This document shows positions 540-36,900 of a stretch of 64,000 nucleotides of DNA, in pieces. Within the stretch, counting starts at the first letter, position 1, and every line of letters starts with the position of its first letter. The stretch covers positions 7,201,501 through 7,265,500 of the forward strand of contig OY727096.1 in assembly GCA_963402885.1 (NCBI GenBank). Reading direction: 5' to 3'. Under the pieces are notes generated by a model. It had not been told where the DNA came from and did not search any database. It worked only from the letters and a program-made list of their open reading frames with translations. The stretch is from Antedon bifida (Eukaryota > Echinodermata > Crinoidea > Comatulida > Antedonidae). Position numbers and translations under genes: made by a program.

Positions 540-1850
540 TTTCAAGCATTCAAATTCTGAAATTCGCACTTTTTGTAGTACTTTACAATTTAACATAAAA
601 TGATATAAATCTTCAAGTTCATCCTTACATAACATATACAATTACCAGTATTATTCATATCCCATTTACTTAATTTACTTTCAAGTTGAAGAGTATTTGA
701 TCTTGCCCTAAATTTCAATTGAGCACCAAGAAAATCAGTTTTAACAGTAAGATAATTTTCTAACTCAGGCAATTTTTTTAATTTAACATAAAGTGATAAT
801 GATGGTTTTGGTACAGCTTTTTTTTAAACCAATCCAATTCATACATTTGACAATTAACACACTTTAAAGATTTAAACAAACCTGAATCTATAGGTATGTT
901 ATTTGAGAATACATTATTAAATCCAGTATTATTCAGAATACTTTTAATTGAGAAAGACAACGTCATCAGCTCAAAAAAGACAGCTAATTTTTGTGCCCAA
1001 AGTATGACATCCAACATTTTCATTATAAAACATTTTGGAGAGTTCATTTATAAAAATACAGAATAAGGTCGGTGATAATACGCAGCCTTGCTTAACCCCT
1101 CCATCGACATAAAATAATCAGTTACAATATCATCAAACTTAACATTACATTTGACATTTGTATAAAGTTTATCAATAATTTTCCAGACTTTACCAGGGAT
1201 ACCAGTATTCCATGCTATTGACAAAAGGCCATTACGCCAAACCGTGTCAAAAGAATGAAATCCATGAAGGCTAAGTATGTTAACATATTTTCCGCATTAC
1301 GCGTAGCCAGTAATGCTTTAAGTGTAAATATGTGGTCCTCACATCTATGATTTTTCCTAAAGCGCCTCCCTGGATTTCCGTAACAATACTAGATTACTCT
1401 AAAGAAATTCTGAGATACGATCACAAATAATACGATTGAAAATTTTAGCAACACATGATGATAATGTAATACCTCTAGTTATCTTTTTTATGGGTAGGTA
1501 TAATGATCCCTTATTCCACTCGGTGGAAATTCTCTCTGATGTAACAAAATAGTTTAAAAGATATGTAAGTGACCTAATAAGGCAGTCACCTCCGTTCTTT
1601 AACAATTCGTTAGTGATGCCATCAACACCAGGTGCTTTATTGTTTTTAGAATGAAGTATTGAACTTTTAACATCTTCAAATGAAATTCTTATATCATCCA
1701 GAACTTTTTGTGGATCATCATTGACATAATCTATATAATTTTCCCTAACATCAGAAACATGACTATTGATAACTATATCATTATAAGTATTGACACCAGT
1801 TTGATTACTTAAGTTACTCCAATAAATTTTAATCAAGTTAGCCATAACAT
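540..1850 (-). mobile_element. Decayed LINE reverse transcriptase region
   Basis: Reading the minus strand from 1845 downward gives the start of a non-LTR reverse transcriptase: a segment with NNKAPGVDGITNELLKNGG followed by WNKGSLYLPIKK. Further down, in other frames, come words resembling KQGCVLSPTLF and a degenerate ADD box, then the C-terminal end GAQLKFRARSNTLQLESKLS with a CxxC...H...C-like cluster near 590-700. These parts lie in order but in several frames, so the element is broken by multiple frameshifts and stops. No endonuclease domain is visible upstream. The order of motifs and the C-terminal zinc-like cluster are typical of LINEs of the L1/CR1/RTE groups; I cannot fix the clade. 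Confidence 0.75.
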
Positions 1851-1877
1851 AACTAGTTTAGATTATTAGAGGTAAAA

Positions 1878-5879: not shown

Positions 5880-6470
5880 TTAGATAAACAATTTAGCTTT
5901 GATGGAATCCGATTGTTTATTGAGTGTAGGTTTTATCTCTTTGATCCACAACATCTCCTTAATTAGGCAATCAAACTTATTGTTACATTTAGATAAGACT
6001 CTAAAGTATTCTGAGATATCACCAGTTATGCCATGTTGTTTTAGGTGATCGCCTATAATACTTTTGTTATGTTCATTAATGCGTTTGTAAAGGTGTCGGC
6101 AAGTGTAACCGACATAGTTTGTATCACACAAACCACATTGAAATTTGTACACCACGCATTGTGAATTAATGATTCTGGGTTTCATTTCTTTAGGTTTTAA
6201 GGTGTCACCTATCTTACGACTAGTAAATACTGGTAAAATATCGTTTTCAATCTTCGCACTAAGTTGTTTAAGTTGTTTAGTAACCGTGTTACAACAAGTT
6301 TGATCCTTGTACGGTAGTACAATCCTAATAGGCTGGGGAGATTCATCAGTTAGCATATCTTCATTAGTATTACTAGGAGTCACACAAGTATTAATGGATT
6401 GGTTGAAAGCCTTAACAATATTACTAATAAGATCTAAATTTAGTAATGTCAATTTAGTAATGGAAATCAT
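5880..6470 (-). CDS. GIY-YIG endonuclease domain of a Penelope-like element
   Basis: The 196-residue frame carries CVVYKFQCGLCDTNYVGYTC then RHLYKRINEH near residues 105-135. This matches the Penelope-type GIY-YIG nuclease: the Y..C..C....YVG core, the catalytic arginine and the downstream histidine. The family uses the domain to nick target DNA for reverse transcription. The C-terminus (LWIKEIKPTLNKQSDS) is the usual end of the protein. The upstream RT fingers and palm are missing, so this is a fragment even though the frame is open. The methionine used is just the first in frame and is not a real start. Confidence 0.8.
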   Translation of the reverse strand: MISITKLTLLNLDLISNIVKAFNQSINTCVTPSNTNEDMLTDESPQPIRIVLPYKDQTCCNTVTKQLKQLSAKIENDILPVFTSRKIGDTLKPKEMKPRIINSQCVVYKFQCGLCDTNYVGYTCRHLYKRINEHNKSIIGDHLKQHGITGDISEYFRVLSKCNNKFDCLIKEMLWIKEIKPTLNKQSDSIKAKLFI

Positions 6471-6475
6471 AACAT

Positions 6476-6729
6476 ATACTTGAATATTCTAAATCTTAAT
6501 ATGTAAACTACAGTACGGTACTGGCAAGTAATACTGTAGTTCATTTATTATAGATTATAGAAAAGTACCTTTGTTAAAATGACAAAATAACACTGTGGTA
6601 ACAAATACAATATTTAACTGAAAGTAGCCTTCAATGATTAGCATAGAATTCTCATAAAATCTTGTGATATCTGAGAAGGTCACTCCCAATGGACTGGTGG
6701 TATAGCAATTTTACCAAACACAATTAAGA
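6476..6729. other. Short non-coding stretch before the TTAA element
   Basis: Nothing recognisable; ends at the TTAA target site 6726-6729. Confidence 0.4.
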
Positions 6730-7628
6730 GCCATTGTCTGTAAGAATCAAAGAAATATCAAAAATAGTGGCAGACTCAAAAAAATGGATTTCTTTCAAAT
6801 TTTGCACATGGCTATATATGTGTTAAGAGAAATCAATTATGAAGTATTTTTTATTTCACACATATATTTCCATGGCAACGGCCAAATTTGTGTTTTTGAC
6901 AAATTTTGTCCTTTTTTAAGGTTTTTTAAAATGGATATTGGTACTACTTTGATGAACGATATTTTTGTTTTGCTCATTTAATTATAAAAAATAATTAGTG
7001 TATGCATAATAACAATGCATTGTGTACCTGTTTCATAATTTTTTTTATATTTTTGATTTTATACTTTGGGAGATACCATTTATTTAAAAAGGGGTGTTTT
7101 TCACTTTTTTTAAATTGTTAAATGCAACTAAACTTTACTTCACCATAACGCCCAAAGTGGTGTATTTTTTTAGCTGATTTATTAGAAATAGGTTGTTCTA
7201 AGGTTTAATAATTGATTTCTAAAATAAAATACTGGGGTAATTTAAAAATCTACAAGCAGTGTTGCGAGAAACATAGGCATTTTGATATAAAAAAAACATG
7301 GTATATTAGTAAAAACATTTTATTTTCTTTGATTAATTGATTTAAAACTCTTTGGTAAGAAAAATTCTTAATGTTTTATATAGTTCTAGTTGTGTTGTAA
7401 GAAAAAAAACCAATATTTTTAATTATAGATTCTGTAATTTCCAGTTTTAATGTCATTTTATAGGTTATATCCTCTGGAAATTTGAATAAATTATCAGATC
7501 GTTGTGAATTTTAATCTTTGCAACAGATTACTCCTCTCTTATTTTGAAGCTCCTCTTTCATTTTTTTACTTTTTTTATTTGCTAACCTAAGCAGATCCCA
7601 CATTCCCATCCACCACCACTTTCGACTA

Positions 7629-7662
7629 CCACCCCCACCCCCCCCCCCCCTCTCCCTACCCC
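7629..7662. repeat. Poly-C tract
   Basis: A run of thirteen C flanked by further C4-C5 runs; the minus strand is a long G-run with quadruplex potential. Open frames across it are composition artefacts. Confidence 0.6.
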
Positions 7663-8159
7663 GACAATAACCACAAAAAGATAAACTGCAACACTTTGGT
7701 CGATCATCCACTATAGAGTGTTAAATGCATGCATTCAAGCACCACCCACACTGCCGCTACCATCGCCCAACCAATAGATGGATTCAAACTCCTCCTTCAC
7801 ACCCCCTCCCCCTTTCTCAAAGCCCCCACCAACCCCAAGTTAAAAATTGCAATGCAAAAGATAGGACAAAAAGTTAAGTTTTTAGACCCTCGCCTCCAAC
7901 CCCCTTACTATTTCAAACTCCTGGATCCACCACTTTCTTCTCCCCAAAGTTGAACCAATCAAAAGTCAATGATATACTCAGGTATGTTAATGCTACATAA
8001 CAAATATTGAAGCCCTGATGTGAAATTTCATTTCATTTAAGGTCAGCATGTAAAATATCACACTTTATATTAAATATTGGTTTTAAATTCTATATTTTTT
8101 TTACTGTGATGGTTGGATTCAGTATTAATATTAATTAATAATTATCTGATAATTATTTA

Positions 8160-9880
8160 ATTTCCCTTAGTTATGCATAGCAACAGTTACTATGGTAACT
8201 AAAATTGAGATGTTTCATACTTATCTTTAAAATTTAAATTTGTAGATTATTAGCAGTCATGCCTTATTTGCATTTTCAAATTACCGTTTCACAAGGTCAT
8301 ATTCATAAGGACTTTCTTCTGTGATTATTTTTATTCATGAAAACCCCATATTTTATTTACAGCGGGCACCTCCCGTAAGCGGCCACCTCCCTTAACGGAC
8401 GCAATTTGAAAAGCCTGTTTGTTCTTCCTATCTAATTAGTGCATTTGGTACCTACCGTAAGCGGCCACCTCCGTAAGCAGCTGCGGGCACCTTTTTATAC
8501 TAAAAATGAGATTTTTTGTATGATAAATGACCTCCCGTAAGCGGCCACCCGAAAAATGTGATACTTATTGCATGGACCTATGAATTAGAGGTCCATGTTT
8601 ATTGTATTTCTTTTTATATTGGCTTTATTTCGAAGCGGTTTTAAAAACATTACTGTGAAGAGATGAGAAAACTACACAGATTGTGACCGACCATTTTTCA
8701 TATGATAAAAGCTTTTAAAATTTGTCTGAAAATGCTAAAAAATACTAAACGACCTGATTATAAATAATAATACAATTAGCTGGAAAATTGAGAGGCTCTT
8801 TTCGTGTATCGTGTATAGCCATAATACGTGATTTTGGCCCTTTATCGGCAGAACCTCCCGTAAGGGGTCACCGCCCGTAAGCGGCCACTTTTCCAGGTCC
8901 CGAGGATGGCCACTTACGGGAGGTTCAACTGTATTTAAAAAAACAATTATCCTTAGTTACGCATAGAAACAGGTTCTAAGATAACATAAATAATACATTT
9001 TGACATAGTTTGACCCAACAAATGACCCTTTCACAAGGTCAGACATTTTCTGGGATTCAGTAGGTAAGTAAATTTGGGAAAAAGTAGTAAAGCTATATAA
9101 TCAATTGTTTGTAGTCATGAAACCCCATATTAAAAATATTGTACTTAGTTACGTATAGAAACAGTTGCTACAGTACACTATAGGTAAAATGTTGATGTAA
9201 TTTGACCTCAATATGTAAAATATAATTTTTTTTTTCATGAAAACTCCATATTTTATTCAAAAAAAATTATCCTTAGTTACGTAAACAGGTTTAAGATAAC
9301 ACTAAAGGTCAATTTTTTACCTTTATTCAGATTTGTCAAGACTTCCTTTCTGAGATTATTAGGATTCAGTATTTAAAGTAAATTTGGCAAAAAGTAGAAA
9401 TGTAAAACTATGTAGAAAAAATGTTTTGTATTTATGAAAAACCCTTTATTTTTTTAATATTTTCGCATAGAAACAGTTACTATGGTAAAATGTTGACCTC
9501 ATTTGACCTCAAAATGAATGAATTTACAAGGTCAAGTTTGTCATCACTTTAAGATTATTAGAATGCAGTAGAAGTAAAATTGAGAAAAATTACAAATGCA
9601 ATAAATTCTTTGTATTCATAAAAACGCCATTTTTTACGTTTTTAAAAAAATTACTTTCCTTAGTTACACATAGAAATGGTTGCTAAGGTAACACTATAAA
9701 TAAAAAATGAAAATTGTTGAGAATTTTTTATGAACTATCTTGTAAATTTTGATCAAACATTAATAGTTGTAGTAAAGTGGGGACCTGTCCTGTTTTGCAT
9801 TCTGACCCCTTTTGACCTCAAATGACCTTTGACCTTTACAAGGTCAGATTTTTTGGGAGGTCTTTCTGTATCTCTTTACA
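8160..9880. repeat. Degenerate internal tandem units with AGGTCA half-sites
   Basis: About six units of 200-250 bp, each with a CCTTAGTTACGCATAGAAAC-like word, a CTATGGTAAC-like word and one or more TGACCT/AGGTCA words, and often a CATGAAAACCCCATATTT-like join. The set is interrupted by the MITE at 8360-8931. Near 9825-9850 TGACC words are closely spaced (TGACCTTTGACCTTTACAAG followed by GTCA). Confidence 0.55.
8360..8931. mobile_element. pogo/Tigger-like MITE nested in the TTAA element
   Basis: Ends are CAGCGGGCACCTCCCGTAAG on the left and, reading inward from the right, CAGTTGAACCTCCCGTAAGT. Both sit beside TA dinucleotides (8358-8359 and 8932-8933). CAGTNGAACCTC-type ends with TA targets are typical of pogo/Tigger members of Tc1-mariner. 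Several internal CTCCCGTAAGCGGCCAC words repeat near both ends. No transposase. Confidence 0.65.
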
Positions 9881-10708
9881 CAAAATAGATGTAAACATTT
9901 ATAAAAACCATTGATGCAATTATTTCAAAGTTTAACGTTATTTTCCATCAACTAAATACAGTATTTCAATGCAAAATACTGTTTTTTTGGCAATTAATTG
10001 AAATAAACCTGGCAACACATTCTCCTATTTTATCTAAACTATTTGTATGACTCTAGTAGCATTATGACAAGCCACATATACATTTTATTATTGTATTAGC
10101 CATATTTAAATTGTGTTTCATGTGTTTTGTTTGTTGATATTTTGTTTGTATTTTTTGTATTTTTTGTATTTTCCTGGCAACACAAAACCTATGTACGAAA
10201 TTTACCCCAGTGTTTTTTTCGTGATTATTGTTGACAAACCTATTGACTATCAAATTACAAAAGTTCATTGATATAAAAACACCACTTTGAAAGTTATAGG
10301 TACGTTTATGAGGTATACTTTTATAAAAAAAATATTTTTAAAAAACACCCCTTTTTAAAATAATGGTATCAACCAAACTCCATTTTGTAAATTTTTTTTT
10401 TCTACATTAAATGGAACTCAATACATGTTGTTTACACTGCTATAAACAAAAACTGTATACTGTAAGTATTTTTGCTTAAAATAAGTATACAAGTTTGTAC
10501 TTTTTCACTATAGAAAATCTGTGAAAAATGGCAAAAACATCAAAATTTGGATAATTGACCGTTGTCATGGCAACGGAGGCTAAAAATTAAAATGAATGTT
10601 GTAGATATGCTTTTTATTGAAATGTCTATTCATGGTAAAAATTTGAGCGAAATCCATTTTTTTACATCTGCCACCAAATCTTTGATTTTTACAGACAATG
10701 GCTCTTAA

Positions 10709-11975: not shown

Positions 11976-12190
11976 TGTTTAAAAAGCATAGCAAACCCCC
12001 ATTGAACCAACATAAAAGTGATTGAATTGTGTAGTGTACAACTTTGGTATGTCAGTAAAAAAATAGTATTTATTTTTGGAGTAAAACATAATTTTTAGTT
12101 AAAAATAATTCATAAACCTGCAAACCTTCAAAAAACATGGCAAACCTCATGAAAACCAAATAAAAATGATTGAATTGATTGATTGAATTC
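11976..12190 (+). repeat. CACTA-associated about 150-bp repeats, left block
   Basis: Contains the words GCAAACC, AACATAAAAGTGATTGAAT, GTAGTGTACAAC, GTATGTCAGTAAAA, then GGAGTAAAACAT, in the order seen in all copies up to 17075. The second unit here is split by the LINE tail at about 12191-12650 and resumes at 12652. Confidence 0.65.
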
Positions 12191-12651
12191 TTAGGGTTTT
12201 TTATAATTCCTTGATATTGAGAACGTTTTAACTTTTTCCTCTTTTATGCTGGTTTTTTAGTCTTAGTTAGGGTCAAAGAGAAAAACTCACTACAAAGAAT
12301 TGTTAACTTAAGTTCTAAATTAATAGGTTGTCAACTTTGTAGCTTATCTTCTTTTTGTGACATGCAAACTCTAGAAAAAAGTAGAGCTATTCTAAAAAAT
12401 GTTAACCATGCCTTGTTCAGTGATTTCAAGCTAATGCCTCATTGGTGTCACTTTCGATGCCCAGCATGTAGAACAAACCGGAAAAGGAATTCGTTTTTGC
12501 GAGTGCAGTGGCCATCTGACTCTTAAATTTTTTTAATTTGACTCTTGTTATTTTGTACTGTGTTTTGTGATATTTTGTAAGATAATTTTAATCCAGACCT
12601 TTTTATTTGAATTGCCCCGTGTGGGATGATTAAAGAATTTTGAATTGAATA
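12191..12651 (+). mobile_element. Truncated LINE/SINE 3' tail inserted in the repeat
   Basis: The sequence ends in GCCCCGTGTGGGATGATTAA followed by a short GAATTGAAT tail, the style of CR1-like or SINE 3' ends. It separates the words ...AGTGATTGAAT and GTAGTGTACAAC, which are adjacent in the other repeat copies, showing that it was inserted into the repeat. No open frame. Confidence 0.5.
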
Positions 12652-12915
12652 TGTAGTAGTGTACAACCTTTCTACCACTTGGTATGTCAATTTAAAAGAA
12701 AGTTTTGTTGTTACAACATATTTTTGGGTAAAACAGCATTTTTTAACCCAATTAGTTTTAACCTTAAATATGATGTTTTACCCCAAAAATAAGTACTGTA
12801 TTTAACAATTTTTAACAATTTTTTTTTTGACTGACATACCAATTTAGTCATACTGTACACTACATGATTCAATCACTTTTATTTTGGTTCAATGGGGTTT
12901 AAAAATATGTTTTTT
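12652..12915. repeat. CACTA-associated repeats, resumed and inverted unit
   Basis: The first half continues the unit broken at 12190. The second half (about 12760-12910) is the same unit in reverse orientation (ATGTTTTACCCCAAAAATA, then GTACACTACATGATTCAATC). This makes an imperfect palindrome. Confidence 0.65.
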
Positions 12916-13790
12916 TGTGATGTTTGAAGGATTTAACAATACCACCCCTTTTATCAGTGTTTCAATGGTTGAATTATATTGATGATTGTAAATAAAAGTT
13001 TGCGCTGTGTCAAAAACAATTCTTTTAATAGCAAAATTATAATATTTTTTAACCTAGACAAAAGTGTTCTATTTGGATGTTAAAATGTCTCGTCCGCAAC
13101 GACATTATAAATCATATTTAATAAAAATAAATAAATAATAATAAAATGTTATAATTTAAAGTAAGTTATATAAAACAACTATCTGGCAACAATAAAAAAC
13201 AGATTAAGTATCTTTTATAATGAGGATAAATGTATACCTTCTGAAAAGTCATGTTTATTTGCTGTCCCATTCGTGACACATAGCTTTATGCAGTACTTCA
13301 TTATTATAGACCTCGGTGTTTTTTGGTTTAAGAAAATGTTATTTCGCAATTTAGGAATAAATACAAAGTATTTTACTACATGAACCTACATAATTTGAAA
13401 AATCTGACTTATTTATTATTTAACCGTACACATAATCTAAAAAACAACTAAACTGAACCTAAAATACCTAGATTTAATTTATGATTTCTTAAAAACAAAT
13501 GTTAGCATTAAACTCAAAATTAAATCATCACTCTGACGAATTTTTATGATTGTTAATTTAATGGGAAAGAATCACAAAATAAGTAATTATTACTTGTTCA
13601 ACAAAGTTACAAAATGTTAAAAAATTCAGATTGCAAGAAATTCAAATTGTGGGTACAGCATCGGTATCTACAACATTATTCTATCGATCGCTTGTACACA
13701 CCACACACACCACATATTGTAAGAATTTGAAAATAATTGAAATTCTAATTTTTTTTGTTCGGACATCAAAATCTGTACAGAAACAAATAA
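12916..13790. other. AT-rich interior without recognised content
   Basis: No gene and no copy of the flanking repeat. A 67-codon frame at 13631 has no protein-like features. Confidence 0.4.
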
Positions 13791-14450
13791 GAATGGGTAT
13801 TGCTAAACACAACCCACTGGGTATATCCATGTAAAAAAAATAATACATTTTTACTGTTAACTAAGTATTTTTGGGGTAAAACATCATTTTTTGGTCAAAA
13901 ATGATTGCTAAACCCTGAAAACCTCCAAAAAAATATAGCAAACCCCATCGAACCAACATAAAAGTGAATGAATCATGTAGTGTACAACCCACTGGGTATA
14001 TCCATGTAAAAGAAATATTAAATTGCTACTGTTAACTACTTATTTTGGGGTAAAACATCATTTTTTGGTCAAAAATGATTGCTAATTTTTAACCAAAAAA
14101 TGATGTTTTATCCACAAAAAAGTAGTTAACAGTAAAAATTTAATAATTTATATACCCAGTGTGTCGTACACTACATTATTCAATCACTTTTATGTTGGTT
14201 CGGTGGGGTTTGCTATGGTTATTTGGAGGTTTGCGGGGTTTAGCAATCATTTTTGACCAAAAATGATGTTTTACCCCAAAAATAAGAACTTGGGTTAGGG
14301 TCAGTAGAAATTTAATTTTTTTTTATATTGATATACCCAGTGGGTTGTACACTACATGATTCAATCACTTTTATGTTGGTTCGGTGGGGTTTGCTATGTT
14401 TTTTTGGAGGTTTGCGGTGTTTAGCAATACCCATAAGAATAAAAACCGAG
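13791..14450. repeat. CACTA-associated repeats, palindromic block before the transposase
   Basis: Two direct units (about 13791-13935 and 13920-14085) face two inverted units (about 14086-14240 and 14235-14450). The centre lies near 14085, where GTCAAAAATGATTGCTAA meets TTTTTAACCAAAAAATGATG. The last unit runs to within about 45 bp of the transposase start codon. Direct and inverted short repeats near the ends of CACTA elements are known binding sites for an accessory protein in plants; here only the arrangement is seen. Confidence 0.65.
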
Positions 14451-14492
14451 AATTTTTACAACAATTCATTCTTTCAGTCAAAAAAATTACAG

Positions 14493-16534
14493 ATGGCTAC
14501 CAACAAAAAGTCAGAGTACAACAAAAAATGGATGGCAGCTAGCCGTGCTTTAAAGAGAATACAACATAATGAAATTAGTTCATCGTCAGATGATGATAAC
14601 TGCAACATCAATAATTTTCCCCCTCATCACTATGATGTTGAAAGAAATGAATTAAATCATGAACAAGAAGAACAAATTTTAGATCAAAATTTTACAGCAG
14701 TAGTCAATGATTTACCCCCTGAATTTCCCATAAATGTTCAGCACAGAAGTGATTCAGAGAATAGCGATGACTTAAACAATCATATGGGTTACAGCGACCA
14801 TGACATTCCATTAACATCAGATTCTGAGTTTGAAAATGAGTTAGAAAAAGATAGGGATAATCAATTTGTAGATGATTTAGCAAGTTGGATAAACAAACAT
14901 CAAATAAAACACAATGCTGCAGATGAATTACTTAAATTACTACAGGGAAATGGCCATTCAAATTTACCAGCAACTGCTCGCACATTACTTAATACACCAA
15001 GAAATATAGTAACATCTGAAATGTCTGATATGCAATACATTTACATTGGTTTAAAGAAGCAACTTCTTTGTGCATTTCATAAATATCCAAAGGATATGCA
15101 AGAAAATGTACAAACTATTAAATTATCTCTTAACATAGATGGCATTCCTCTTCACAAAAGTTCTAACAAATCTCTATGGCCTGTTTTATGTGCTATAATG
15201 AATATGGGTGTGTTGTCCATGTATTTCCGGTAGTGTTAACTTACGGTACATCAAAACCAAAAAACTTAAAATTTCTTAATGAAATAGTACAAGATTTGAA
15301 TGATGTTCTGACAAATGGATTCACAGTTCACTTAGAAAATGCTGAAAAAACTATACCAGTAGAGATAAAATGCATTGTCTGTGATGCACCAGCAAGAGCC
15401 TTTGTTAAAGAAATCAAATCATTTTCTGGTTACTATGGTTGCGATAAGTGTAACCAAAGTGGAGTTTGGTGTGGACGAATCACATACCAAGATGTACGTT
15501 CCTTTGAATGCAGATCTGATGCTGCCTTCCGCAGGCAATCTAATCAGGAGCATCATCTTCGTCCTGTAGGATTGGAACAGCAACGAATATCACCATTCTG
15601 CAATTTACCAATAGATATGGTTAAGTGTTTCCCAATTGACTACATGCACCAGTCATGTTTAGGAGTCACAAGGAAGTTAATATATCTGTGGACAAAAGGA
15701 AAGGTGGGAGTAAGGATGTCTCAATTACAAAAAGACATAGTCAGCACAAAGTTGGTGTCACTGCAAAAATCTATCCCCAAATGTTTTGCTAGAAAACCTC
15801 GTAGCCTAGCAGAGGTTGAAAGATGGAAGGCAACAGAGTTCCGTCAGTTTCTTTTATATACGGGGAAAATATGTTTAAAAGGCACACTCCAAAAAAAATA
15901 TTTTGACCATTTTATGACTTTAAGCATTGCCACCTGTATTCTTGTTTCACCAAGGTTAGCTGCAACCTATATAGAGTATGCACATAATTTGATGTTATAT
16001 TTCAATGAGCAGGGACGTGTTCTGTATGGCAATGAATTTTTAGTGTACAATGTCCACAGCATGGTACACCTTGCTGATGAAGCAAAATCATTCGGAAGCC
16101 TTGACAACTGCTCAGCATTTCCCTTTGAAAACTATTTACAACACTTGAAAAAATTAGTTCGTTCTGGAAAAAATCCTCTAGTTCAAATATCTAAGAGGTT
16201 AGCTGAAACTTCTAAGGCTAGTTTAATTAATATTCCATGTACTGATGACATCTCAACAGCTGAGCCAAACAATGCATTTTTGCTATCAAATGACTCGTGT
16301 GCAGAAGTTGTGGGAAAAGTGCATTGGGATAAAGAAAAATATCTGTGCAGGGTTTATAGAAGAACTCAAGATGCCTTTGACAATCCATGCAACTCGCGTC
16401 TCATTGGTGTACATAAAGTTCGCAATTGCAATGCATCAATAAGAGTGGTATCAAAAGCTGAATTAAAACAACAGGCAATCAAAGTAATGGTGGGGGAAGA
16501 AACAATCTTCATGGGAATTTTACACAGGCTATAA
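14493..16534 (+). pseudogene. CACTA (Tnp2-like) DDE transposase, one frameshift
   Basis: Two overlapping frames (14493-15233 and 15176-16534) together cover about 680 residues. The first has a charged serine-rich leader, then LSLNIDGIPLHKSSNKSLWP, which corresponds to the first aspartate region of Tnp2-type transposases (DG...WP). The second carries CIVCDAPAR, a CDKCNQSG zinc-like segment, and FPIDYMHQSCLGVTRKLIYL, matching the conserved D.MH...LGV..K box, and later EFLVYNVHSMVHLADE. These identify the animal branch of CACTA/EnSpm (CMC) transposases. The switch of frame lies close to 15200-15235, a single lesion. The start chosen is the ATG at 14493, right after TTACAG, a splice-acceptor-like word. 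Flanking repeats in both orientations fit a transposon. Otherwise well preserved, so probably recently active. Confidence 0.75.
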
Positions 16535-16684
16535 AATCTATCTACAGTAATTTTAAAATGTAACTGAAACTTTTAATATTATAATCACTATTTTAGAATG
16601 ATACTATGTTTGATCACTACGATGTAGATGTTAATGATTTTTTTTAACCTTTATTGATTCTACTGTAAATGGTGTCAAAAGTGG
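16535..16684. other. 3' flank of the transposase
   Basis: AT-rich, no clear polyadenylation signal of the AATAAA form; leads into the next repeat block. Confidence 0.35.
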
Positions 16685-17075
16685 TATATTGTTAAACCTG
16701 CAAACCTTCAAAAAAACATAGCAAACCCCAACTCCCATAAAAGTGATTGAATCATTTAGTGTACGACTCATTTGGTTGTATTTCAGTTTTTTTGTTACCT
16801 ACTTATTTTGGGGGTAAAACATATTTTTTGGTTAGAAATAATTGTGTTAAAAAAAGGTTGTATAATTCCAAAAATAAATTATTTAGTTTTCATGAGGTTT
16901 GCAATGTTTTTTAGAGGTTTGCAGGTTGTATTAACCATTTTTAACCAAAAAAATGATGTTTTGTGCTCCAAAAATAAATACTATTTTTTTACTGACATAC
17001 CAAATGAGTTGTACACTACACGATTCAATCACTTTTATTTCGGTCCAATGGGGATTGGATTGTTGTATTTTTTTT
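16685..17075. repeat. CACTA-associated repeats, right block
   Basis: Contains the same unit first forward (CTGCAAACCTTC, then CATAAAAGTGATTGAATCAT) and then inverted (ATGATGTTTTGTGCTCC, GTACACTACACGATTCAATC), again palindromic. It lies between the transposase and the DUF4806 gene. If the repeats mark element ends, the element would be about 11976-17075 and would exclude the DUF4806 gene. Confidence 0.65.
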
Positions 17076-17237
17076 GAGTAACAAAGGGTTATACTGTAGT
17101 AGGTAAATCTTACAATACGACGCTCAACCTAATAATAGTATTTAAGAAATTAATTTTTCATTGCCATTTGTTGGACATATAACATATGTATTAAATTAAA
17201 ACAATAAAAACATAAAAATAATATTTTCATCCCACAG

Positions 17238-20200
17238 ATGACTAACTTTGCCGTAGTAATTTTTGATGATGAAGAGGCAGTGGACATTGTCTCAGAAAAA
17301 TGGATAATAAAAAAACAGGAGGTAAGTATTTTGTTATAGCCACTTATTGTATTGTACCACTGTATGAAGAAAAAACAATTAAAAATAGAAAGATAACCAC
17401 TTTAACTTTTGTTTTTTAGAAATTACACTGCTACTGGCCAAGGCAAAACGTTGTTTCAAGGGCAAAAAGGCATGAAATTCCAGACCCAAAATGGCCCTTG
17501 TATCCTATAAGGATAGTGAAATACACTGGTAAGAAAAAATATTTCTGAATCACAAACACTTTTAATGTATCCAAAGTTATCAATATGTTATTTGCACTAA
17601 GTTTAGTATCTTATCACTACAAAATGATAACTAATAAAGATTTATTTTATGTTATGTTATGTTAAGTCCATTCTTAAATTATGCTAAAAATTAATCTTTA
17701 TCTAAAGTAACACTAACAGTGCTTGAGCAAAATTGCATTATTTTCTCCCATTGTGAAAGGAAAAATTAAACAATGTTATTACTAGTCTATTAAATAGCCT
17801 AGTGAAAATATACCTGTATAATCTAAAATTAAACTTAAATCCATTATTCCTTAAACCACCAAACTAACTAAAATACAGTTTTATAAAGCTATGATTGATT
17901 AAAAAAATGACTACATTTACAGAATTATATGAGAAGGCAAAGGAGTACAGAGATCAGGCGAAGAATGACTCTGTTGTTGAAAGTAATGACTCAGATGAAG
18001 AGTTGGGAAGGCGGGTATCAAGAGTACCAAAGCGCCTTGCTGATGATTCAGACTATGAAGCAGAGAGCGAAGGTATACATGTTGTTAATGACATACAATT
18101 TTTTGTAATTTTTTTATGACCTATATTAGCAACACAAACCAGCACACCTTCAATACCTACAGTGGTCAAATGGCTGATTTGAATGAATCCCTACAAACCA
18201 AAATTATGGATGAATATATTCAGTTCAATTTTTGGAAGCCTAACACTTCGTTTTATTTCACTTACAGAAAGCATTGGTTCAGCAAAGAAAAAGAAATCAA
18301 ATGCAGAAAAGGTAATGGACCTTCCTAAGCTTCCCGAACCACCACAATCAATAAGTACACCACGTGCTGGAAGAAAAAACTTTGATGAGATGGTGGGGCC
18401 ACCAAATCTAACAACACCATCTACATCACGACGTATTGCAACAATAACGTCAATCACCCAGAGCACCGATGAAAGTAAGTACAATCAAAAAATAACATTC
18501 ATACATAAAAACAAGAATTTTAATCCTCAGAAAAGTTCAGAATAGAAATTTTGTTAATATTTTCTACATTTTTTTTTATTTGGTGATTCATACCAGGCGA
18601 ATCACCTATTGCTAAAGTTTTTCTTGCCATTATCTAAAATGGGATGGACATTCAATTTTTTAAACTTGGCTAGCAGGCACATGAACATAGTACATGCTGT
18701 TAAAGCGTAACTAAGGTTGTAAAATTCAAAACAATTTTTAATTCCTAATAATACTGTACCATCTACTACTGCCAGCTACTTGCACAGTTTATTATACAGT
18801 AATTTAAAAACAACATAAATCAACATACATTTTATGTTCTATTTTGTCAGCTTTCAAAAAAAATGTTCTAATGAAGTTGGACACAATAGTAGAAAATCAA
18901 AAAGAACAGCTTTCATTCTTGCGGCGGCAAGCTGCAAATCACCAACCATTGGATTTTGATATGGAGGACATGTTCCTGCAGCCCTTAGATGCAAAAGAGG
19001 AACTTGATGACCTAGAAGAAAAGCTAAAAGGAACAGACTTCAGAAAGAACATAGTATGTTATTGTTATTCTTGCGATTGTAGTTTACAGTAGCTTTTTAA
19101 AAGTGTACCCTGCACAGTACAATGCATATAAGCTTCATATTTAGTAGGAGGCCTTGAAGCTGTGTAGTCACACCAACTCAACTGCAGCATCTTTGATGAT
19201 ATGCCAATGATATTATTTTTAGAAAAAAAATATTTAATTAATTATTGTTATTTTTTGTTCTAGATCAAGTATCTGAGTGTTCTTGGTGGGCCTACAGTAA
19301 AGGCATCCATTAAAATTATGCTTAGGAAGATCGGATCAAACAAACTATGGTCTTCCTATAGCATGAAGGGAAGGAAGGGAAAGCAAAGCTTTAAAAAGCT
19401 TATTCTTTCCAGAGTAATTATAAGTAAGTATCATTATATTTATTTCCAAAAAACTAAAACTATTCATTTTCATTGTACTGTCTAAATGCAAGGCTGAAAG
19501 TATGTATCACTGTACACTCATGGTTTTCTTTTAGAATATTAAAGACCATGTATCTGCAATTTGTTTATGCTTTGTAAAATTTATGCATATTAATTTAATA
19601 TATATTGTTCTCTGCTGCTTCTCTTTGGAATTCTATCCCTCGTCATTTTACTAAATCAACTTCTATTGCTATTTTTAAAAAAGAACTTAAAACGCATCTT
19701 TTTAACATCCAATATAAGCGCCTTTGATTTTTACTTCGGTTTAGTTGATTCTGGCGCTATACAAATACCTAAATTATTATTATTTTTAAAAAACATAAAA
19801 AAATAAAATTCTGCTACTGCTGTAAAAAAAAGATTTCACCTAATCGCTCACATTTTTTTTTGTCAAAGCGAAAAACTATTTCTTACTCGTCAGGGATATT
19901 CCCCACAACGCGACATGCATGTTGGGCGCAATCAGAATACAGTACATGGAGCACACACATAGCCTAGCGTATTTTATACATACTCACTGTTATTTTTGTA
20001 CATTATTATTTAATTTTAGTTAATGTGTCTTTATAGCCTGCAAGCAGTGCACTACCTGTTTCATTAGCTGTTGTATAGTTAATCATCTAAGTATAATTTT
20101 GAAATATTTTCTTGTTTAATGTGCAGGGTCGTGTCTCCGGGTTCACGAAAAATCGAAGGAGAGCATAATCGAGACAGAAATTGGAGAATTTTTAAAATAT

Positions 20201-21306
20201 GCTCCTCATCGTCCAGGAGGTACAAAGATGAAGGTAAGAATAGCAATTGAACTATTTTCAAGTAGACCGATTTATTTCAATCTAGGATATGAAATTCAAT
20301 AGTCTGAAGTATTTAACTAAAATAGTCATTGTTTAAACATAGACAATGAAACAGGACTTGGAACATAGAAAGATGGAACAACAAAAATGGTCAATTGCTT
20401 CAAACCTTGTTATACTAGGCCTAGGCTAGTAGTTGTACTATAAATATTAATACCCGAAAGTAATTCAGGTTATATAAATTGACATGACAAGCTTTGATAA
20501 CCGTACCACACCACTATAAAATAGTTATGCATTAAGCTATCCCAAAGCAATGTTGTTGATACATTATACCATGTCTAAATGTTAAGTGAACCAACTAAAA
20601 AAGGCGCTGAGCACTTTCGAACCTCTATCTAGCCAGTTACCATCCAAGATCGCTGGGCATATAGTCAGGTGGCTTAACAACAAAAAAATTAGGAAATCGT
20701 TACACGGTGGACCATACAAAAGCGCCAAATAGAGCTTCGTTGGGACCTACTAATTGATTTTTTCCTAGGAGCCACTCTGGTCGTAATTTATTTTTCAAGA
20801 TGGCGGCCAAAATCCAAAATGGCCACAAATAAATTTGTGGCCATTTAAATCTAAGGATGGATAAGCAAGCCTGTCTGTGAGCTACAGCGATTTTAATTGC
20901 TTTTGCTTATCCTTGCCTCCTTAGATTTCCACCTGTCTTGTTTTTGTTACCTTGTTTTAAATGTATTTCGATTTTAAAGGCTAAATAAAGAATGAATGAA
21001 TGAATGAATTATATATAGGCCTAGGCCTATATGGCTCTGCTGTTCACCCACCGTAAAGTTGTAACCGCCGCGCAGCGGGTGAATGTTTTTAATTGGGTTA
21101 GCCTAGTTAGACCGTGGGGTGCGAAAGTGCGCTAACGCCCTAAAAAATCCATAGAAGATACGTCTACTTAATTAAAAATAAGGATGATTATTTTAAACAA
21201 TGACTTTTTAACTCTACAGGCTGTAACCATTGACGATTCCATTGACGATTCAATGGAGGAGGATGATGACGATACAACAGAAGACCTTGTAGGCCTAGAC
21301 ATATAA
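17238..21306 (+). CDS. DUF4806-domain protein, eight coding exons
   Basis: Coding exons: 17238-17321, 17420-17528, 17923-18072, 18268-18474, 18851-19053, 19264-19423, 20127-20233 and 21220-21306, all with GT-AG borders and compatible phases, giving 368 residues. The N-terminus MTNFAVVIFDDEEAVDIVSE, then WPRQNV and WPLYPIRIVKYTG, is the usual DUF4806-family start. A serine/acid and KKKK-rich middle follows (residues about 65-185). The C-terminal domain has LEEKLKGTDFRKNI, KYLSVLGGPTVKASIKIMLR and WSSYSMKGRKGKQSFKKL. The tail is acidic (EEDDDD). No lesion is seen, so it looks intact. Family function is not established; a nuclear DNA-binding role is suggested by composition only. It lies just downstream of a CACTA transposase and may be that element's accessory protein. 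The ATG follows CCCACAG, so an upstream noncoding exon is likely. Confidence 0.8.
19610..19790 (+). mobile_element. CR1/L2-like LINE 3' end in intron 6
   Basis: An open stretch reads SAASLWNSIPRHFTKSTSIA and ends FKKELKTHLFNIQYKRL with a stop, the usual C-terminus of CR1/L2-group ORF2. It is followed by CTGGCGCTATACAAATACC and an ATTATT tail. Only this end is present, so it is a 5'-truncated insertion within the intron of the DUF4806 gene. Confidence 0.7.
20580..21010 (+). mobile_element. LINE/SINE tail with (GAAT)n end in intron 7
   Basis: The stretch ends in GGCTAAATAAAGAATGAATG with further GAAT copies, a non-LTR 3' tail. Upstream is non-coding and includes TCAAGATGGCGGCCAAAATC. The same kind of tail, reversed, marks the two 270-bp insertions in the satellite. 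The left boundary is uncertain. Confidence 0.4.
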
Positions 21307-21639: not shown

Positions 21640-22745
21640 GTTGTCCGTTTCTAAAACAATTGTAAAGCAATCCAACAAATGTGTGAAAAATAAAACAAAC
21701 ATTTAACTTGGACTAATTAATATGTTCAGAACACCAGTAATCTTTTAAAGTAAATTACGCTCTAAAACCGTTCTTTAAATGTTATACCAAACAAAAAAGC
21801 TCCACATTTCACGTTAACCTAACGTTATTTTATCTTATTTAATAACGTTCAACAAAACTTTCAACTAAATGATATAACGTTCTAAAAACCTTGTTTGAAT
21901 GTTAAAACAAACATTAGTTATAACGTTCGGCCAACCCAAAATAGTTCTACGTTTTCACGTCATCTTAACGATATTTTAAACCATTCAAATAATTTATAAA
22001 TAAAACATTCAAGTAAGGTTTTTTAAAGGTTATTTTTAATTTCAAAGGTAATGTTACACAAACGTTATTTAAATGTTAAAGCTAACGTTCGCTATAACGT
22101 TCAATTAACTAAAACAATGATCCACATTTTAACGTCATCCTAACGTTATTTTTACATTACTCACATAACGTTTCAACAAAACATTTATATAACGTTATTT
22201 AACAGTTGTTTGTAATGTAATATATAACTTTCTAAAAATGTTAACCGAATGTTAAAGCTAACGTTAGCTCTAACGTTCAATTAACCAAAAAAAGGGTCCA
22301 CATTTTAACGTTATCTTAACGTTATTTTTACATTATTCACGAAATGTTTCAGAAAAAAACATTCATATAACGTTTTTTAACAGTTAGTTTTAATGTAATA
22401 AATAACATTCTAACAATGTTAATTGAAGGTTAAAACCAACGTTAGTTATAACATTCGATTAACCAGAAAAAGGGTCCACACTTTTACGTTACCCTAACGT
22501 TATTTTTAAACCGTTCAAATTACGTTCAAACAAAACATTCAAGTAACGTTTTTTAAAGGTTGCTTTTAATGTCAGAAATAACGTTATACAAACGTTTCTT
22601 AAATGTTAAAACTAACGTTAGTTATAACGTTCGATTAACAAAAAAAAGGGTCCACACTTTCACGTCATCCTAACATTATCTTATAACATTCATATAACGT
22701 CATGGAAACATTCATATAACGTTCTGCAAACGTTATATTGTTTGC
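21640..22745. repeat. AACGTT-rich tandem repeats
   Basis: About six units of roughly 180 bp, each with TAACGTTCGATTAACCAAAA, a GGGTCCACA word, CACGTCATCCTAACGTTA and further AACGTT words. AACGTT is self-complementary, so units look alike on both strands. The block ends with TTGTTTGCTGGGTAG. Units are 70-85 percent alike by eye. No coding potential. Confidence 0.6.
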
Positions 22746-23095
22746 TGGGTAGTTAATAATTTGATGTTTAAGAGGTATAATACGACGTTGGAAATAGAAT
22801 TCGAGTGTGAAGATGTTTACTGTAGTTCGAAATATACATCGGTTGTAAAAGATTTCATAGATTTGAAGTAGATTATTGGATGGAAAGTTTCAATGTTTTC
22901 AATGTTATAACAGACCAAGATCGTTGGAGTTTTACCGACATTGGGATTGTTTTAGTTTCAAGACAAAGAATTGTTGATACTGTTGAGTACTTACTTATTA
23001 AACTGTTGTAAAATTGTATACTTATCGTATTCACTTTATTTGGATTCTTTACGATCTGAAGGGGATACATTAATAACCCCACACCCCACATTACG
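22746..23095. other. Unique-looking spacer before the satellite
   Basis: No gene or repeat recognised; ends in a C/A-rich patch (CCCCACACCCCAC) right before the first satellite unit. Confidence 0.4.
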
Positions 23096-33313: not shown

Positions 33314-33944
33314 TGTAATATAATGTTGTTATGTTGTACTTTGTAAGGAAGACTCTTTACTCGCTTTGCTGTCGTAACATATATTATTTATTCAGAATAT
33401 ACTTCAGAAGATACAATAATAATGATGCTGATAACTAACTGACTAAGGAACAGAGGATTAGTGATGCTGGCTGTAAGGTGTGTGCTCCGTGAAGTGGCTG
33501 TGTAAGGTGTGTGCTCCGTGAAGTGGCTGTGAGGTGTGTGCTCTGTAAAGTGGCTGTAAGGTGTGTCTGGGCTCTTCTGAAACTTGGGGGTATATCGGCT
33601 TCGGTTCATTTACATATGTCACTACGTAATCTGTGAGGGTAACGATTGGTCCTAAGTTGGTCCAGGGGTGTTTAAGTGGGAGTGATTAACGGTATAATAA
33701 GGTATTTCAATGATGGATGACACTGTCAAATCTGTACTTAAATAGTGTCAATCTCTCCTGGTTTAACGATGGGATAGGTCAAATGTTAAGCTAAGTGTTT
33801 TCTTTAGGGATTCTATTATAAACTAAATGGACATTAAAAACATCTGGACAAACTCTCCTCTGGACTTTCTGGGTCAAGTTTGTGAACTCAAATACAAATA
33901 CAAAGGTTGATTTCTTAATTATAAAAGTATATCGTTACATTACA
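33314..33944 (-). repeat. 5' LTR (right)
   Basis: 631 bp, matching the left LTR. On the minus strand the interior begins TGGTGGAAGACC, a possible primer-binding site; the tRNA is not identified. Confidence 0.85.
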
Positions 33945-36900
33945 ATAAATAAGATTTGGTTTGCACTGTGCGTTACCATATCCATTTTAGATACAATCGC
34001 GCACAGTGATAATAAATAGGATTTAGTTTAGCACTGTTCACTACCATATCCATCTTGTTTGCACCCGCGCACAATGATAATAAATAGGATTTAGCTTAGC
34101 ATTGTGCGCTACTATATTCATTTTCGTTCCACTTGCGCACAGTTATAATTAATAGGATTTAGTTTAGCACTGTGCGCTACTATATCCATTTTGGATGCAC
34201 TCGCGCACCGTGATAATAAATAGGATTTAGCTCAGCACTGTGCGCTACCATATTCATCTTGGTTGCACTCACACACAGTGATAATAAATAGAATTTAGTT
34301 TAGCACTGTGCGCAACTATACCGATTTTGGTTGCACTCGCGCAAAGTGATAATAAATAGGATTTAGTTTTGCACTGTGCGCTATAATATCTATATTGGTT
34401 GCACTCGCGCACAGTGATAATAAATAGGATTTAGTTTAGCACTGTGCGCTACCATATCCATCTTGGTTGCACTCGCGCACAGTGATAATAAATAGGATTT
34501 AGTATAGCACTGTGCGCTACCATACCCATATTGGTTACACTCGCGCACTGTGATAATAAAAAGGATTTAGTTTAGCACTGTGCGCTACTATACAAATTTT
34601 GGTTGCACTTGCGGACATTGATAATAAATAGGATTTAGTTTAGCACTGTGCGCTACCATATCCATCTTGATTGCACTCGCGCACAGTTATAATTAATAAG
34701 ATTTAATTTAGCACTGTGCGCTACTGAACCCATTTTGGTTGTAGTCGCGTACAGTGATAATAAATAGGATTTAGTTTAGCACTGTGCGCTAGCATATCCA
34801 TTTTGGTTGCACCCGCTAACAGTGATAATAAATAGGATTTAATTTAGAAACTGTGCGCTATCATAACCATCTTATTTGCACTCGCGCACAGTGATAATAA
34901 ATAGGATTTAGTTTTGCACTGTGCGCTACCATATCCATATTGGTTGCACTCTCGCGCACAGTTATAATAAATAGGATTCAGTTGAGCACTTTGCGCTACT
35001 ACACACATTTTGGTTGCACTCGCGCACAGTTATAATAAATAGAATTTAGTTTAGCACTGTGCCCAATTATACCGATTTTGGTTGCACTCGCGCACAGTGA
35101 TAATAAATAGGATTTAGTTTTGCACGGTGCGCTATAATATCTATATTGGTTGCACTCGCGCACAGTGATAATAATTTAGTTAGGCACTCTGCGCTACCAT
35201 ATACATCTTAGTTGCACTCGCGTACAGTGATAATAAATAGCATTTTGCTTAGCAATGTGCGCTACCATATCCATTTTGGTTGCACTCGTTAACATTGATA
35301 ATAAATAGGATTTAATTTAGAAACTGTGCGCTACCATATCCATCTTGATTGCACTCGCGCACAGTGATAATAAACAGGATTTAGTTTAGCACTGTGCGCC
35401 ACCATAGCCATCTTGGTTGCACTCGCGCACAGTGATAATAAATATGATTTAGTTTAGCACTGTGTGCTACTATATCCATTTTGAATGCACTCGCGCACCG
35501 TGATAATAAATAGGATTTAGCTTAGCACTGTGCGCTACCATATTCATCTCGGTTATACTCACACAAAGTGATAATAAATAGAATTTAGTTTAGCACTGTG
35601 CTCAACTATACCGATTTTGGTTGCACTCGCGCACAGTGATAATAAATAGGATTTAGTTTAGCACTGTGCGCTAGCATATCCATTTTGGTTGCACCCGCTA
35701 ACAGTGATAATAAATAGGATTTAATTTAGAAACTGTGCTCTACCATATCCATCTTGATTGCACTCGCACACAATGCTAATAAATAGGATTTAGTTTAGCA
35801 CTGTGCGCCACACCATATCTATCTTGGTTGCACTCGCGCACAGTGATAATAATTATGATTTAGTTTAGCACTGTGCGCTACTATATCCATTTTGGATGCA
35901 CTCGCGCACCGTGATAATAAATAGGATTTAGCTCAGCACTGTGCGCTACCATATTCATCTTGGTTGCACTCACACACAGTGATAATAAATAGAATTTAGT
36001 TTAGCACTGTGCGCAACTATACCGATTTTGGTTGCACTCGCGCAAAGTGATAATAAATAGGATTTAGTTTTGCACTGTGCGCTATAATATCTATATTGGT
36101 TGCACTCGCGCACAGTGATAATAAATAGGATTTAATTTAGCACTGTGCGCTACCATATCCATCTTGGTTGCACTCGCGCACAGTGATAATAAATAGGATT
36201 TAGTATAGAAGTCTGCGCTACCATATCCATTTCGGTTGCACTCGTGCACAGTGATAATAAATAAGATTTAGGTTTACACTGTGCGTTACCATATCCATTT
36301 TAGATGCACTCGCGCACAGTGATAATAAATAGGATTTAGTTTAGCACTGTGCGCTACCATATCCATTTCGGTTGCACTCGTGCACAGTGATAATAAATAA
36401 GATTTAGGTTTACACTGTGCGTTACCATATCCATTTTAGATGCACTCGCGCACAGTGATAATAAATAGGATTTAGTTTAGCACTGTGCGCTACCATATCT
36501 ATGTTGGTTGCACTCGCGCACAGTTATAATAAATAGGATTTAGTTTAGCACTGTGCGCTACCATACCCATATTGGTTGCACTCGCACACATTGATAATAA
36601 ATAGGATTTAGTTTAGCACTGTGCTCTACCATATCCATCTTGATTGCACTCGCACACAATGCTAATAAATAGGATTTAGTTTAGCACTGTGCGCCACACC
36701 ATATCTATCTTGGTTGCACTCGCGCACAGTGATAATAATTATGATTTAGTTTAGCACTGTGCGCTACTATATCCATTTTGGATGCACTCGCGCACCGTGA
36801 TAATAAATAGGATTTAGCTCAGCACTGTGCGCTACCATATTCATCTTGGTTGCACTCACACACAGTGATAATAAATAGAATTTAGTTTAGCACTGTGCGC

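Follow-up and report, generated by a model that had tools for sequence, protein, structure and literature searches.

In Antedon bifida, a Tnp2-like transposase gene and a DUF4806 gene are parts of a single transposon with defined ends, 2-bp target duplications and subterminal motif arrays. The pair recurs in diverged copies and both proteins are conserved. This recurrence suggests that the DUF4806 family helps the transposase to move DNA. On balance we favour, with moderate confidence, an animal CACTA/EnSpm-type (TRC-like) two-gene transposon in which the DUF4806 protein binds the arrays at the ends and assists the transposase as TnpA does in plants.

Ends, arrays and extent of the element

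In the window (the whole stretch of 64,000 nucleotides that was analysed) the element occupies positions 1–22749 on the plus strand. It extends beyond window base 1 by a further 8,842 bases, up to its left end at C9:7192659; the right end is window position 22749, and the whole copy (copy A) is 31,591 bp long with a later insertion counted in. These limits come from the alignment of copies A, B, C and D and from the end sequences; the lists of copy alignments omit short alignments (below 60 to 150 letters, the threshold depending on the script). There are three near-identical copies of the element in the genome. A preliminary description of this DNA had suggested a possible element with both genes at 11976–21306. 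Both genes are indeed inside one element, but its real ends lie outside that interval and it is larger than supposed.

The element starts with CCCAGCAAAC and finishes with GCTGGG. Specifically, CCCAGCAAAC is found at both ends in copies A, B and D, and the right terminal inverted repeat (22729–22749) reads CCCAGCAAACAATATAACGTT on the minus strand. Two relatives, F and G, have the same left end as A, B and D, and their right ends are GCTGGG. The flanking DNA at the left end differs among A, B and D, and the right end is common to four copies with differing flanks; those of B and C share their first four letters and then diverge. Wherever both flanks of a copy were read, in five of five cases, there is a 2-bp target duplication (A ta, B ct, D tt, F ta, G ta; copy C stands outside this count). 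Copy D retains both outer ends and the DUF4806 gene, and its transposase is gone.

The terminal inverted repeats start with CCC, as in animal TRC/CACTA (EnSpm) elements. According to the available part of PMC1636069, the TRC elements of animals (Transposons Related to CACTA), SmTRC1 among them, likewise have CCC-starting ends, 2-bp duplications and a Transposase_21-like protein, and an Aedes element has a 10-bp inverted repeat, CCCAGTCAAC. Plant CACTA elements are different, since here the termini are CCCAG instead of CACTA and the duplication is 2 bp instead of 3 bp long.

The palindrome AACGTT is crowded at both element ends. Across the whole element the first 2.5 kb hold 77 motifs and the last three bins 24, with 4 between; in the window, 24 fall in the final 1.05 kb as compared to 3 in the preceding 21.7 kb. 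The right subterminal array (21821–22749) contains these 24 motifs and has a tandem unit of 176 bp. Copies D and F also have arrays at both ends, and G has one at least on the left; the right array of G carries ACGTYG in place of AACGTT. Compared with animal TRC elements, such large AACGTT arrays are particular to the A. bifida element.

Copy A alone carries the later insertion, which is 3,977 bp long (6728–10704), flanked by TTAA and with inverted ends GAGCCATTGTCTGTAA. It is missing at the same place in copies B and C and is thus not part of the element proper. The units that occur in both orientations (13809–14430) belong to a dispersed repeat, for which the genome has at least 152 matches. 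The preliminary description was right that these units surround the transposase in both orientations; as element ends they are ruled out, being a dispersed repeat. Its suggestion that the DUF4806 protein binds the unit finds no support either, because the unit is an unrelated dispersed repeat. The AACGTT array at the ends is a likelier candidate for the binding repeat.

The two genes

The transposase gene (about 14494–16534, plus strand) is Tnp2-like, of the CACTA/EnSpm type, in agreement with the preliminary description. A frameshift in the window copy splits it into two overlapping frames; in B and C the frames are unbroken. An unbroken copy (L002) scores 24.6 bits with Pfam Transposase_21 (cut-off 28.6) and 25.2 bits with DUF4218 (cut-off 27); the corresponding scores of L004, at the same cut-offs, are 27.2 and 26 bits. 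In five aligned transposases from this genome D256, D337, C356, C359, H561, H565 and E585 are invariant. They form the D, D, C(2)C, H(3)H, E signature known from CACTA elements, which agrees with the CMC/Transib group in having C(2)C and H(3–4)H between the second D and the E; D256, D337 and E585 are the putative catalytic residues.

The structural model of the transposase is of low confidence (mean pLDDT 46.1, pTM 0.40). With this low-confidence model, a PDB fold search has RAG1, BbRAGL or HzTransib in each of rows 1–43 (E 3.8e-7 to 1.4e-3, query-normalised TM 0.26–0.36), which hints at a RAG1-like, RNase H-like fold of the predicted core. ProtoRAG also carries a partner gene. Transib and ProtoRAG have 5-bp duplications, and the A. 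bifida element differs from them in its ends and in duplication length. The C(2)C and H(3–4)H pattern is shared with Transib/RAG1 transposases (PMC12730594, in the part available).

The DUF4806 gene (17238–21306, same strand) is intact and spliced, as had been claimed. Splicing with GT–AG introns and translation give eight exons (17238–17321, 17420–17528, 17923–18072, 18268–18474, 18851–19053, 19264–19423, 20127–20233 and 21220–21306) and 368 codons. The protein matches PF16064 (DUF4806) with 35.8 bits (E 1.1e-8), above the curated cut-off of 25. With exons joined by eye, the proteins of F and G reach 37.8 and 30.1 bits at this cut-off. The exons are identical in copy C and have one base changed in copy D. 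Search of the A. bifida genome with the PF16064 family gave no match, probably because exons were searched singly.

DUF4806 is classed as a subtype of the DNA-binding BEN domain in the available part of PMC11075544. A PDB profile search with DUF4806 returned two rows only, a designed PPR protein (E 0.005) and a PadR-like regulator, and no BEN chain. The N-terminal module of the protein (model pLDDT 60) has no PDB match at E 0.001.

Recurrence and conservation of the pair

The preliminary description had asked whether the two genes co-occur and whether the ends common to the element copies enclose both. Within this one genome, which the recurrence search covers, the pair recurs and the shared ends enclose both genes. 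At seven of seven places (the six best transposase matches and place H, which came from a search with G's transposase), the transposase is followed at a distance of no more than 1 kb by DUF4806 exons in the same orientation. Relatives with about 69% and 42% identity in the transposase keep the order transposase, then DUF4806, both genes being on one strand and enclosed by such ends. In two further relatives the pair survives as fragments. Moreover, DUF4806 is multi-copy in this genome and often element-borne, which does not fit the single-copy host gene considered in the preliminary description; some DUF4806 places have no transposase nearby.

Both proteins are conserved and DUF4806 is as constrained as the transposase. 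Between the window lineage and F, DUF4806 has a dN of 0.258 and the transposase one of 0.252, with third-position differences of 0.58 and 0.51, respectively. As dS of DUF4806 is saturated, the comparison is confined to dN and codon positions.

More distant Tnp2-like genes give another picture. At 13 of 14 places (a tally that leaves out C8:22221188 and C10:15779407) the 1.5-kb flanks have no significant match to DUF4806 or to the N-terminal module. The single positive, C14:9611808, is weak because the profile used in that search already included its module; compared with the module of G without that profile, it has 25% identity and E 0.98. In a second DUF4806 subfamily (L074, L075) there is no AACGTT in the 5–5.5 kb of surrounding DNA read. 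Viral contigs scanned with DUF4806 and transposase alignments contained no relatives.

Possible role of the DUF4806 protein

We infer that transposition requires the DUF4806 protein and that this protein binds the arrays. Movement would be of the cut-and-paste type: the transposase, with its predicted RAG1/Transib-like DDE core, would cut at the CCCAGCAAAC ends, and insertion would leave the 2-bp target duplication. The BEN-type protein of the second gene may bind the AACGTT palindromes of both subterminal arrays and, once bound, mark the ends or draw them together for the transposase. It may also control the element's promoter, like TnpA in plant En/Spm.

The plant elements En/Spm and Tgmt* (Tnp2/TnpD and TnpA-like proteins) have in common with the A. 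bifida element a Tnp2-type transposase, a second protein of DNA-binding type, asymmetric subterminal repeat arrays, large size and deletion derivatives (PMC2613891, in the part available). DUF4806 probably binds the motifs at the ends, as TnpA does. In contrast to plant CACTA elements, the second protein is DUF4806, which, to judge from the DNA, has a spliced gene of its own; it has no known similarity to TnpA. The BEN-domain protein Insensitive binds a palindrome as a dimer (PMC6317261, in part); AACGTT is a palindrome too, and DUF4806 is a BEN subtype in print (PMC11075544). Insensitive differs in being a host chromatin factor. We suggest only tentatively, at somewhat less than even chances, that DUF4806 is the animal counterpart of TnpA, a BEN-type accessory protein of TRC/CACTA transposons which binds palindromes, recognises ACGT-core subterminal repeats and changes together with them. 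Copy D and the right array of G speak against our main reading, and so do the 13 distant places, the L074/L075 subfamily and the PDB search.

It is less likely, though worth serious attention, that the element encodes DUF4806 as a regulator or anti-silencing factor, acting at the element's promoter or chromatin and outside the cutting complex. BEN proteins have known roles as factors of chromatin and transcription (available parts of PMC11075544 and PMC6317261), a regulatory function of the arrays is conceivable, copy D retains DUF4806 without transposase, and plant TnpA serves both roles (PMC1636069 and PMC2613891, in part). However, both ends have arrays, in D and F as well, and G has one at least on the left; this is expected for a role on the ends, and regulation is still compatible with it.

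That DUF4806 is a captured host gene, carried as cargo with no role for the element, we regard as improbable. DUF4806 is a widespread metazoan domain, its gene has eight exons as compared to the one open frame of the transposase, and some places lack a nearby transposase. Cargo would be expected to decay or vanish, but the pair is kept at three levels of divergence with order and strand constant, and DUF4806 is constrained as much as the transposase. There is hardly any chance that the inner inverted units, or the near-inverted repeats at 11994–12163 and 16879–17056, are the true ends and DUF4806 a mere neighbour: inverted stretches of 44–50 nt (90–95% complementary) do flank the transposase alone, but the unit is dispersed, the outer right end is common to four copies, D holds both outer ends and DUF4806 without transposase, F and G have the pair within outer ends, and the outer ends with their duplications already contradict it.

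In the literature available in part, we found no tie of DUF4806 to any transposon, and nothing joining the BEN domain with EnSpm or with transposon-encoded proteins; Repbase, outside this scope, may have such elements. In the available part of PMC5704228 the BEN domain and CACTA wording stand in unconnected places. Animal CACTA-type elements found in print are, in the parts available, described by their transposase. For animal TRC elements Transposase_21 is reported as the sole domain with detectable similarity to CACTA proteins, and no DUF4806 gene is named in the accessible text (PMC1636069).

As both genes are in one element with defined ends, the binding target of DUF4806 can be tested directly, and so can the question whether animal CACTA transposition requires two proteins, as in plants. 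If DUF4806 is the counterpart of TnpA, many scattered, lineage-expanded animal DUF4806 genes would be transposon genes or their domesticated descendants, including those counted in Hydra and those noted on zebrafish chromosome 4. Transposon-borne DUF4806 could explain the uneven numbers of this domain. Two Hydra species have 69 and 54 DUF4806 genes as compared to 0–6 in five other cnidarians, and one of the two Hydra species is listed as enriched in DUF4218 (47, as compared to 0–16 in the other six species; PMC7642931, in part). DUF4218 is a domain of these transposases; the link to transposons is ours and not drawn by the authors of PMC7642931.

The transposase–DUF4806 pair and its recurrence

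The window is C9:7201501-7265500. In it a Tnp2-like transposase (about 14494-16534) precedes, by 0.7 kb and in the same orientation, a DUF4806 gene of 8 exons and 368 codons, with GT-AG introns, whose product matches PF16064 at 35.8 bits (cut-off 25). The transposase of this copy (A) is split over two overlapping frames, its alignment with copy B having a single 2-letter gap that shifts the frame; in copies B and C it is an open frame of 738 codons. The preliminary description had suggested a two-protein transposon, and the pair does recur in the one genome searched (315.6 Mb, 27 contigs, animal to judge by its gene families; matches found there are lower bounds). DUF4806 exons lie less than 1 kb downstream of the transposase, on the same strand, at all seven places A, B, C, E, F, G and H, which are the six best transposase matches of the genome search and H, located via the transposase of G. 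Places E (C15:8.16 Mb) and H (C7:24.04 Mb) hold fragments of the pair. F (C10:15.8 Mb) spans 14,518 bp and G (C13:7.18 Mb) 11,714 bp, both with a left end identical to that of the window element, the right end GCTGGG and a ta duplication; F has arrays at both ends. Their transposases are 69% (F) and 42% (G) identical to that of the window in local matches, 64% and 34% in full alignment. In the second gene of G the N-terminal module is present (31%, E 6.6e-8), and the DUF4806 exons of this gene, joined by eye, score 30.1 bits.

Three further copies, B (C8:14.6 Mb), C (C8:25.2 Mb) and D (C11:8.1 Mb), are nearly identical to A. All four share the right end (window 22749) and differ in the flanks beyond it, those of B and C being alike for four letters before they diverge. 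The left end of A is at C9:7192659, outside the window; the left flanks of A, B and D differ, with 2-bp duplications ta, ct and tt, respectively. Copy A is 31,591 bp long, B 25,399 bp and C 27,477 bp, the last from end positions, its left end being placed by position only. From copy D (12,498 bp) some 14 kb are missing, the transposase among them, but its DUF4806 exons remain and differ at a single base. These exons are unchanged in C; in B, exons 1-2 and the greater part of exon 3 are gone. In a genome pattern search the element end was found at 34 sites, and at 1 site when read backwards. Facing end pairs 2.7 and 3.0 kb apart (C7:16482715-16485438 and C15:9581505-9584492) are likely short non-autonomous derivatives.

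Type of element and proposed role of DUF4806

Residues D256, D337, C356, C359, H561, H565 and E585 are common to five transposases of the genome; they form the C(2)C and H(3-4)H signature that extracts of PMC12730594 describe in EnSpm/CACTA, Transib and RAG1. The AlphaFold2 transposase model has a mean pLDDT of 46, several core blocks reaching 58-86; its first 43 PDB matches are RAG1, BbRAGL or HzTransib, at query TM-scores of only 0.26-0.36. With CCC at its termini, duplications of 2 bp and a transposase whose resemblance to Transposase_21 lies just below the Pfam cut-off, the element fits the animal TRC elements as described in extracts of PMC1636069. It has neither the CACTA termini nor the 3-bp duplications of plant CACTA elements.

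The palindrome AACGTT is crowded at the ends of copy A: in 500-bp bins there are 77 in the first five, 24 in the last three and 4 in the 56 between. Of 40 in the window, 24 fall in 21700-22749; the preceding 21,699 bases hold 3 and the following 41,251 hold 13. In 2000 single-base shuffles of 21700-22749 the motif appeared 0.32 times on average and at most 4 times. The tandem units measure 176 bp at the right end and 200 bp at the left. The right array of the relative G is based on ACGTYG, not AACGTT. DUF4806 has been described as a subtype of the BEN DNA-binding domain (PMC11075544), and the BEN protein Insv binds a palindrome as a dimer (PMC6317261); AACGTT is likewise palindromic. According to extracts of PMC2613891, plant TnpA binds subterminal repeats and is needed together with TnpD for transposition. 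From these parallels and the element anatomy we infer that DUF4806 may act as TnpA does, binding the subterminal repeats and being required for transposition.

Compared between the window lineage and F, DUF4806 (261 codons) has a dN of 0.258 with dS saturated, and the transposase (673 codons) a dN of 0.252 with a dS of 2.50. The three codon positions differ by 0.287, 0.157 and 0.582 in DUF4806 and by 0.281, 0.163 and 0.514 in the transposase. The two are under about equal constraint at the protein level, which argues against DUF4806 being a mere passenger. No report tying DUF4806 or BEN to CACTA elements was found in the extracts of literature searched, Repbase lying outside the search; as far as this literature goes, the conserved DUF4806 gene is the new feature of this TRC-like element.

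Extent of the association

Fourteen places with more distant transposases were compared with both profiles in 1.5-kb flanks; no match was significant at 13 of them, and that at the one positive, C14:9611808, is weak. Therefore the association is, as far as seen, a feature of a clade. DUF4806 exons were counted at 18 places at least. The transposase is directly upstream at 7 of them, and one is copy D, within an element that lost its transposase. C10:16846813 has an element right end 1.5 kb downstream, and C14:14768512, where the match is weak at E 7e-4, has a left end 10 kb upstream. The remaining 8 include two stretches, C12:18100001-18105500 and C15:2119501-2124500, of a second, different DUF4806 subfamily, 92% alike over the exon; AACGTT is absent from both in the parts read. 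The C12 copy has a Tnp2-like fragment some 18 kb away.

Other sequences in and beside the element

Copy A alone carries a later insertion of 3,977 bp (window 6728-10704) with TTAA flanks and inverted ends (GAGCCATTGTCTGTAA), in which no transposase frame of at least 120 codons was found; the TTAA suggests an element of the piggyBac or Kolobok type. Window 13809-14430, 11994-12163 and 16879-17056 hold a dispersed repeat whose 175-bp unit frequently stands in tandem and inverted pairs; this repeat has at least 152 genome matches. Within the transposon there are retroelement-like pieces at window 1402-1857 and 5883-6488 (minus strand); judged by eye, the translation of one resembles reverse transcriptase and that of the other GIY-YIG. 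A 68-bp satellite starts some 350 bases beyond the right end of the transposon and occupies several blocks over window 23099-45593, the largest with 171 copies (33944-45593).
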